From Tamaricihabitans halophyticus (GTDB lineage Bacteria > Actinomycetota > Actinomycetes > Mycobacteriales > Pseudonocardiaceae), in assembly GCF_004340875.1 (NCBI RefSeq), contig NZ_SLXQ01000007.1, positions 186,001 through 250,000 of the forward strand: a DNA stretch of 64,000 bases. Reading direction: 5' to 3'. The notes beneath the pieces are model-generated. The model was not told the origin of the DNA, did not search any database, and saw nothing but the letters and a program-made list of their open reading frames with translations. The position numbers and the translations under genes were made by a program. Shown here one piece after another: positions 31,600-33,094 of this stretch (position 1 is the first letter of the stretch; each line of letters begins with the position of its first letter).

Positions 31600-32421
31600 G
31601 TGACTGTGTCCGAGCAGAACGTGCCGGCCGAGCAGGGCCTACCCGAGCAGAACCTGCCAGATTCGGCGGTAGCCAGCGATCCAACCGACGCATTGTCCCC
31701 GGTGCCTGGGCATACCGCGCAGAACCGGGCACCATCCACGGGTCGGCTCCGCTACTGCTACGGCCCGATGGACTGTGGAAAATCCACTCTCGCGCTGCAG
31801 ATCGACCACAATCACGCCAGGCAGGGGCGACGCGGACTGCTGCTGGTCCGGCATGACCGATCAGGGCAGCCGCGGATCTCGAGCCGGATCGGGATCACCC
31901 GCCAGGCCTATGAGGTGGGCGCGGACACCGATATCCGGGAGCTGGTCCGAGCACAGTGGGCCGCCGGTCACCGGCTGGACTATCTGATCGTCGACGAAGC
32001 CCAGTTCCTGTCGACCGAACAGGTCGAGCAGCTGGCTGAGCTCGCCGACGACGTCCAGCTGGACGTGTACTGCTTTGGGATCGCCACGGATTTCCGGAGT
32101 CGGCTGTTTCCTGGTTCCCAGCGGCTGTTCGAACTGGCCGATGAACTCCAGCCGGTCCAGGTCGACGTGCTGTGCTGGTGTGGCGCAGCTGGCCGGTTCA
32201 ACGCACGGGTGCAGCATGAGCGGGTGCTCCGCGCCGGCGATACGGTGCTCGTCGCGGACACGGAACCAGGACAGTCAACCCCCGGTGGCGCCAAGCAAGC
32301 GGGGACCGAGCCCGCCGCCGAGGAGCCGCAGAACGTGCGCTACCAGGTGTTGTGCCGCCGGCATTACCGCCAAGGTGATCTCGGTGCGACGGCACCCCAC
32401 GGCCAATTGCGCCTAGCGTAA
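31600..32421 (+). CDS. tdk: Thymidine kinase (type II)
   Basis: A 273-residue kinase that phosphorylates thymidine in pyrimidine salvage. The P-loop is Y-G-P-M-D-C-G-K-S-T, Walker B is L-I-V-D-E-A-Q-F, the lid/substrate region shows Y-C-F-G-I-A-T-D-F-R, and the structural zinc cysteines are in L-C-W-C-G-A and the C-terminal L-C-R-R-H-Y. It is longer than the usual type II enzyme (about 190-220 residues) because of a roughly 48-residue Pro/Ser-rich N-terminal extension and an acidic insert before the last zinc motif. The GTG at 31600 gives T-V-S-E-Q-N; a later start is possible but none is better supported. Confidence 0.9.
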   Translation: MTVSEQNVPAEQGLPEQNLPDSAVASDPTDALSPVPGHTAQNRAPSTGRLRYCYGPMDCGKSTLALQIDHNHARQGRRGLLLVRHDRSGQPRISSRIGITRQAYEVGADTDIRELVRAQWAAGHRLDYLIVDEAQFLSTEQVEQLAELADDVQLDVYCFGIATDFRSRLFPGSQRLFELADELQPVQVDVLCWCGAAGRFNARVQHERVLRAGDTVLVADTEPGQSTPGGAKQAGTEPAAEEPQNVRYQVLCRRHYRQGDLGATAPHGQLRLA

Positions 32422-32625
32422 CCGCAACGAGACTTGCCAAGTGGAGATACGGTGCAAGTAGCGGCGCCCCGAGCCTGGTTGGCCAGCCGGCTACCAGCAG
32501 TCCCCCGAGCGGGCGTAAATCACAAAGTTCCCCCGAAAGGCGGCGTCATATTCGACCCGTCACAGTCTCTCTCCAGGGAAAGGCAGTCGCGTCCAACAGA
32601 AGAACTCACCCGCAGAAATTTGTAG
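32422..32625. other. Non-coding stretch downstream of tdk
   Basis: The 328-bp gap between tdk and rbpA is the longest without a gene in the window. In this first two-thirds I see no convincing gene, RNA or terminator; the remainder holds the rbpA promoters and a nested dyad, described separately. Confidence 0.5.
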
Positions 32626-32654
32626 TTGAGCGGTGAATCATGTCACGGTATGCA
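32626..32654 (+). promoter_or_regulatory. Candidate housekeeping promoter of rbpA
   Basis: TTGAGC (32626-32631) and TATGCA (32649-32654) are separated by 17 bp, good -35/-10 matches. The -10 falls inside the left arm of the 13-bp inverted repeat 32644-32706. A transcript from here would start near 32661 and have a leader of about 90 nt. Confidence 0.5.
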
Positions 32655-32706
32655 ACTGCGGCCGGTACCGGGAATCCTGCGGTACCGTCGCGCGTTGCAT
32701 ACCGTG
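32644..32706. repeat. Nested inverted repeat over the rbpA promoters
   Basis: Outer arms CACGGTATGCAAC (32644-32656) and GTTGCATACCGTG (32694-32706) are a perfect 13-bp inverted repeat. Inside, the 8-bp palindrome CGGTACCG occurs twice, at 32663-32670 and 32680-32687, placed symmetrically with 6 nt to each outer arm and 9 nt between them. Left arm and inner copies bracket the SigR -35 element; the right arm contains its -10 GTT. It is probably a multi-site operator; a cruciform or RNA structure is possible. Confidence 0.7.
32670..32696 (+). promoter_or_regulatory. SigR-type (thiol-stress) promoter of rbpA
   Basis: GGGAAT (32670-32675), an 18-bp spacer and GTT (32694-32696) match exactly the GGAAT-N18-GTT promoters read by actinobacterial SigR/SigH. 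rbpA is known as a SigR-regulon gene in Streptomyces, which supports the assignment. The expected start would be about 45 nt before the rbpA ATG. Confidence 0.75.
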
Positions 32707-32749
32707 AGCATCACCCGGGCTCAGCTTGAGCCGATGGAAAGGAAGCACC

Positions 32750-33094
32750 ATGGCCGACCGTGTTCTCCGTGGAAGCCGACTCGGGGCGGTCAGCTACGAG
32801 ACCGACCGAAACCATGACTTGGCGCCCCGTCGCACCGTCCGGTACGCGTGCCCAAAGGACCACGACTTCGAAGTGCCGTTCTCGGATGACGCCGAGATCC
32901 CTTCGGTGTGGGAGTGCCGCCTACACGGCAGCGAGTCCAAGATCATCGACGGTAGCCAGCAAGAGGAGAAGAAGGGCAAACCGCCGAGGACGCACTGGGA
33001 CATGCTCCTGGAGCGTCGGTCGATTCCCGAGCTGGAAGACCTGCTCACGGAACGTCTCGAAGAGCTGAAGGGACGGCGCAGCCGCTCCGCCTAG
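32750..33094 (+). CDS. rbpA: RNA polymerase-binding protein RbpA
   Basis: A 114-residue actinobacterial transcription factor that binds the principal sigma factor and RNA polymerase and stabilises the open complex. The family features are plain: D-R-V-L-R-G-S-R-L-G-A-V-S-Y-E-T-D-R at the N-terminus, the central core Y-A-C-P-K-D-H-D-F-E-V-P-F with W-E-C-R-L-H-G (cysteines that hold zinc in some members), and the C-terminal R-T-H-W-D-M-L-L-E-R-R-S-I-P-E-L sigma-interaction helix. AAAGGAAG precedes the ATG. A SigR-type promoter, a second promoter and a nested dyad lie upstream; a strong terminator follows. Confidence 0.97.
   Translation: MADRVLRGSRLGAVSYETDRNHDLAPRRTVRYACPKDHDFEVPFSDDAEIPSVWECRLHGSESKIIDGSQQEEKKGKPPRTHWDMLLERRSIPELEDLLTERLEELKGRRSRSA

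Follow-up and report, generated by a model that had tools for sequence, protein, structure and literature searches.

The window, a stretch of 64,000 nucleotides of DNA from Tamaricihabitans halophyticus (Pseudonocardiaceae), carries rbpA at 32750-33094 on the forward strand (Pfam RbpA, 148 bits), the strand of all promoter and leader features described below. A thymidine-kinase gene (NF003297, 324 bits) lies directly upstream at 31600-32421. The closest named match of the window RbpA is a protein from a Pseudonocardiaceae MAG (L059, 99% identity). The relatives search turned up RbpA in all of its genomes (60 of 60), and RbpA was also seen in 80 contigs with public titles. Most of the relatives searched have a further, distant RbpA-like protein at about 30% identity, for example at G000:C14:28378-28701.

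Upstream of rbpA the sequence GGGAAT (32670-32675) is followed after 18 nt by GTT (32694-32696). This is the arrangement of a SigR/SigH-type ECF promoter in front of a target gene (GGGAAT/C, 18-19 nt, GTT), and it was present in nearly all relatives that were read; in alignment A1 the -35 element is nearly invariant and GTTGC at the -10 element is invariant. The genome encodes a sigma factor of the SigR/SigH type (TIGR02947, 356 bits; cut-off 251.6). The SigR-type promoter recognized in the sequence-only reading is real by these observations, and from the spacing its start site is expected near 32703-32705. The accompanying suggestion of stress control of RbpA fits the available part of PMC6344877, which places rbpA under SigR in Streptomyces and under SigE in mycobacteria.

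A second, housekeeping promoter had been read as TTGAGC-N17-TATGCA at 32626-32654. The letters are present, but a sigma-70 scan of 32380-32780 gave 0 promoters, and none of the 46 aligned sequences, of which the window is one, has the form TAnnnT at the proposed -10 hexamer. Judged as a SigA promoter, for which a conserved TAnnnT -10 with a TTGACa-like -35 at 16-18 nt is expected, it was rejected. Its left part falls within an element conserved in relatives, TTGACnnGTGAAnnnnGTCAC (32626-32646 in the window), which contains GTGA-N6-TCAC and, in its long form with TTGAC, is essentially single-copy and located before rbpA in the genomes that have it. Because the housekeeping -10 is not conserved, the notion of two interleaved promoters fails, and a switch, if there is one, would choose among transcripts that differ in their 5' ends, not between two -10 elements.

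In many relatives a conserved block, GTGA-N17-GATAAC-GCGTCAC, precedes the hairpin described below and forms a candidate upstream promoter. Its best match in the window is 9/17, and genera rich in the hairpin differ in the hexamers. In relatives such as L031 and L037 the block, as GTGAyr-N17-GATAAC-GCGTCACGA, lies about 45-95 nt ahead of the hairpin and is followed by a pyrimidine-then-purine stem, GCATCCCTTAGGAGGAAGC; it is poorly kept in the window species. The block is possibly the upstream rbpA promoter, and we infer that an upstream rbpA transcript would be made in T. halophyticus. Many genera also have a small hairpin such as CACCCATTAGGGTG, with varying letters, about 150-200 nt before rbpA. 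For a possible whole-leader structure including the upstream GCATCCCTTAGGAGGAAGC stem, RNAalifold on 46 sequences gave only -4.1 kcal/mol, and that stem shifts register. A short upstream ORF from TTGTTGAC, noticed by eye with a polypurine GGAGG before it, was rejected because its reading frames end at unrelated places. In the 46-sequence alignment the window row is anchored at a doubtful upstream place, which affects only columns upstream of the hairpin.

Predicted leader hairpin over the SigR promoter

Repeat finding gave a single inverted repeat upstream of rbpA, with 28-nt arms at 32643-32670 and 32680-32707 that are 82% complementary and spaced by 9 nt. The RNA fold of 32627-32720 had an energy of -53.7 kcal/mol versus -34.7 ± 3.6 kcal/mol in shuffles (z -5.3), and 0 of 200 shuffles were as good. 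The predicted hairpin extends from 32631 to 32716 and comprises 86 nt with 35 base pairs, with interruptions. The nested dyad that had been described as 63 bp long with two CGGTACCG palindromes is thus present, beyond chance and longer than reported, growing outwards where GGTGA (32632-32636) pairs with TCACC (32711-32715). The two palindromes, one per inner arm, were located by repeat finding at 32663-32670 and 32680-32687; they are absent from the relatives printed, in which other sequences take their place and still pair. Covariance model R1, built from 18 sequences, scored the window hairpin at 71 bits (E 6e-16), the window row being one of those 18.

Four strands could account for the fold: strand 1 (GGTGA, 32632-32636), strand 2 (the left outer arm TCACGGTATGCAAC, 32643-32656, beginning with TCAC), strand 3 (the right outer arm GTTGCATACCGTGA, 32694-32707, ending with GTGA) and strand 4 (TCACC, 32711-32715). 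Strands 1:4 and 2:3 would form the long hairpin, or strands 1:2 and 3:4 would pair locally. The first helix is paired in 90.1% of cells of alignment A3. The outer arms form 14 of 14 pairs in the window and 10-14 of 14 in 44 of the 46 aligned sequences, the other two rows being misregistered; strand 3 is defined by repeat finding, arm pairing and covariation, and strand 4 by the predicted structure and the covariation alignment. In this hairpin the SigR -35 forms the apical tip and the -10 lies within the 3' arm. The local 3:4 alternative, a 5'-terminal mini-hairpin GTGA-GCA-TCAC at 32704-32714, would be open to the SigR transcript, and a local fold of the matching 15 nt is seen in each of the 81 sequences (81 of 81). 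A second stem-loop, GGCTCAGCTTGAGCC at 32718-32732, is common to the long and the SigR transcripts, and pairing variants of it were seen by eye in relatives.

The hairpin is not a general property of SigR promoters. An unusually strong fold occurs at just two of 24 further GGGAAT-N18/19-GTTG sites in this genome (z -4.0 and -2.7); the remaining 22 have z above -2, among them the one that lies some 400 bp ahead of sigR (z +1.6).

Distribution and covariation of the hairpin

With an E cut-off of 0.01, R1 had matches in 135 of the 297 genomes of the family and in 24 of 46 genera, generally at one place per genome when its own reverse strand is set aside. Matches that were fetched lay directly upstream of the rbpA start on the sense strand in 107 of 110 cases, a location before one gene that is characteristic of a structured leader; the remaining three, with E of 3e-4 or worse, are weak and seem to be false. 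When 298 genomes from across the order were searched, 33 had matches, all of them Pseudonocardiaceae, and there was nothing outside the family. Named loci with strong matches came from Amycolatopsis, Prauserella, Saccharomonospora, Actinocrispum and Actinokineospora; Saccharothrix, Lentzea and Saccharopolyspora scored weakly, and Pseudonocardia loci had no model score. Rfam 15 gave no match at gathering score, the only match being to a miRNA on the minus strand (21.9 bits versus 100, E 0.55).

Pairing was analysed in 46 anchor-aligned sequences, a set that excludes other Pseudonocardiaceae in which the left element or an anchor was missing (e.g. L020, L027, L033, L036, L043, L044, L062, L068, L071, L074, L075, L078, L081, L082, L086, L089 and L113); nine of the left-out rows were returned in later comparisons, including the strand-energy and gene-defined counts. 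The misregistered rows L018 and L029 were counted as they stood in the outer-arm pairing and were dropped for the gene-defined G·U count. For the larger model search set 83 of 100 sources were used, with weak and duplicate rows left out.

The arms are kept and pair in relatives, a check that had been named beforehand. Across the 46 sequences the outer arms formed on average 11.37 of 14 pairs with G·U allowed, versus 10.97 ± 0.10 with arms swapped between species, a value reached by 0 of 5000 permutations. The arm region folded better than its shuffles in 43 of 46 sequences (93%), and in many of the species among the 22 printed folds the structure is one continuous hairpin despite quite different inner-arm sequences. 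Gene-anchored windows beat their shuffles at 107 of 107 model-positive loci (mean z -2.88); in the clade with the full hairpin 19 of 19 sequences did so (mean z -4.87).

In 81 distinct sequences 78.8% of cells were paired, versus 37.5-52.6% with slid partners. A covariation score on these sequences was reached by 0 of 500 column shuffles, in an alignment fitted to the structure. A null simulated on the tree with columns evolving independently gave 72.6 ± 2.3% paired cells versus the 78.8% observed (0 of 300 simulations), and the number of cells changed on both sides was reached in 2 of 300. The inner stem was 60.7% paired versus a tree null of 49.0 ± 4.2% (1 of 300). When only the outer arms were considered, the paired percentage was reached in 17, the both-sides count in 74 and the Watson-Crick percentage in 0 of 300 tree simulations; this result is weak because the right arm hardly varies. 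Covariation beyond phylogeny, the mark of a structured cis-regulatory leader RNA, was thus found for the hairpin, and more weakly where the outer arms are taken by themselves. With no structure imposed, the consensus fold was weak, at -1.45 kcal/mol.

Arms were also exchanged between species. The inner halves paired with their own partner at -12.6 kcal/mol versus -9.7 kcal/mol across species, below all 5000 permutations (n=80). After removal of near-identical arms, whole arms paired at -34.5 versus -29.9 kcal/mol (0 of 4000, n=40). In the Saccharothrix/Lentzea/Saccharopolyspora-type clade, represented by 19 of 25 loci, own arms had no advantage over swapped ones (98% of permutations did at least as well, n=19), although 23 of 27 sequences still fold slightly better than shuffles. 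Since species-specific pairing was not found in this clade, the full hairpin can be taken as established only in some of the family.

A hairpin over the SigR promoter was also considered in Actinoplanes, Micromonospora and Pseudonocardia and was rejected: single folds are suggestive, and within-species pairing was no better than foreign (26%, 79% and 22% of permutations as good, respectively). In single folds of L124, L128 and L131 (Actinoplanes types) and L101 (Actinomycetospora) the SigR -35 lies in or near the loop, without covariation support.

RNA or DNA: the strand signature and alternative explanations

At positions whose partner is an almost constant G or U, so that a transition still gives a wobble pair, a transition was found in 141 of 567 cells; at positions whose partner is an almost constant C or A, so that a transition would disrupt pairing, it was found in 7 of 567. 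Transversions occurred in 87 of 1134, all counts being of cells and not of independent events. In a gene-defined set, not chosen by the model, the outer arms had 63 G·U versus 18 A·C cells in 44 sequences, an excess that arises partly from base composition. Energy z was lower on the sense than on the antisense strand in 36 of the 55 sequences defined by gene and in 69 of the 81 found by the model. Sense-strand selection maintains the pairing in a large part of the Pseudonocardiaceae, and pairing that is kept through sense-strand G·U points to RNA rather than to an operator or a cruciform, neither of which predicts such a strand bias.

These observations bear on the proposal that one regulator acts on both start sites, or that a structure switches between them. 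Its structural part is supported, as relatives keep both the arms and their pairing, and each pairing partner has a local alternative; its two-promoter part fell with the housekeeping -10. There remains an operator for the SigR promoter alone, with the inverted outer arms serving as sites of one DNA-binding regulator through looping or cooperative binding. The arm sequence is conserved across most of the family, and the GTGA-N6-TCAC of the left element resembles what we take to be the half-site pair of the CRP family. The arm changes, however, obey RNA wobble rules and keep pairing through sense-strand G·U, which a protein-DNA operator does not need; the inner stem covaries though its sequence changes freely; and TTGACnnGTGAAnnnnGTCAC, being essentially confined to one site per genome, reveals no regulon. 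We therefore regard an operator as unlikely, although it is the best of the alternatives.

The dyad might also act as DNA, a cruciform or supercoil-sensitive element that blocks or times SigR initiation, and a single DNA strand of it does fold strongly (-32.3 kcal/mol, z -6.0). In a cruciform both strands must pair, so G·T and A·C would be tolerated equally, whereas G·U and A·C numbered 226 versus 49 in the outer helix, where column composition alone predicts 234 and 59, and 167 versus 31 in the inner helix. As the outer counts are near the composition expectation, the comparison of wobble-tolerant and wobble-intolerant positions is the stronger evidence. A cruciform is in our judgement distinctly improbable.

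Still less credence is given to promoter mimicry, in which GGGAAU and GUUG of the RNA, at promoter spacing, would bind SigR-RNA polymerase or SigR as a feedback brake resembling 6S RNA: both elements are kept in the RNA structure with the -35 at the tip, but they are needed at the DNA level in any case, and the large bubble of 6S RNA is absent here. A functionless chance dyad at an ordinary SigR promoter is equally implausible, for although GC-rich DNA folds readily and pairing is not species-specific in one clade, chance does not account for the specificity of the model, the covariation, the tree simulations or the shuffles of the window.

A proposed link between promoter choice and leader structure

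Our main reading, to which we assign a probability of roughly one half, is that the dyad encodes a conserved 5' leader RNA hairpin of rbpA, carried by a message started upstream and escaped by the SigR message, which starts inside it. A transcript starting upstream of about 32630 would contain all four strands and fold into the hairpin of about 35 bp through 1:4 and 2:3 pairing. Because GGGAAT is at the tip and GTT in the 3' arm, a SigR transcript starting near 32704, within the 3' arm, would lack the 5' arm; with strands 3 and 4 only it could not form the long hairpin and would begin with the small 3:4 hairpin. The choice of promoter would in this way decide the leader structure.

The long, nearly continuous stem suggests that the hairpin probably serves RNase III-type processing or stability of the housekeeping message and is escaped by the stress message. 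Its 35 predicted pairs in the window, although interrupted, exceed the at least 20 bp of an RNase III leader substrate, and an RNase III gene is present in the genome. Translational occlusion and an RNA thermosensor were rejected as roles: the mean unpaired probability of the ribosome site was 0.504 in the long versus 0.542 in the SigR transcript (lower in 20 and higher in 14 of 41), and without a consistent difference no translational role is evident.

A bolder version of the leader-hairpin reading, which we hold tentatively and at somewhat less than even odds, is a dual-coded stress promoter, in which the same DNA would be the SigR promoter and the body of a regulatory leader hairpin. The hairpin would be a brake on housekeeping rbpA transcripts only, bypassed by SigR through starting inside it; in the boldest form the hairpin, showing the SigR elements as RNA, would feed back on the SigR polymerase.

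Parts of this arrangement are familiar. The leader hairpins of rnc and pnp are processed by RNase III and share the long, nearly continuous double-stranded stem, which for rbpA is known as a prediction; we know of no RNase III-processed leader with a stress promoter in its stem. CIRCE is likewise an inverted repeat at a stress promoter that is also present as RNA; it differs in being a fixed sequence with a 9-nt spacer that is bound by HrcA, whereas the rbpA arms vary and covary. Leader hairpins are known, and so are alternative promoters, each in its own right; the two occur together in Listeria prfA, where a second, stress-sigma promoter presumably lies inside the leader hairpin. The prfA thermosensor leader is similar in placing a hairpin on the longer transcript (available text of PMC8079631). 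That hairpin covers the ribosome site, whereas the rbpA hairpin ends 33 nt ahead of the start codon and brings no consistent change in access. The SigR regulon promoter of actinobacterial rbpA has the same GGGAAT/C-N18/19-GTT upstream of the gene; here it lies inside a conserved leader hairpin, which the available part of PMC6344877 does not mention. A literature search, as far as its sources were accessible, gave no published description of an rbpA leader hairpin. What is new, as far as checked, is a stress promoter with elements that themselves make up the body of a covarying leader hairpin.

If this is true, those who map promoters would learn that inverted repeats lying over a promoter may act as signals in the RNA and need not be operators. 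RbpA sets the efficiency of the main RNA polymerase in actinobacteria and contributes to rifampicin tolerance. The rbpA hairpin would then represent a leader RNA class outside Rfam whose carriage is set by promoter choice, providing a simple coupling of stress transcription to post-transcriptional control.
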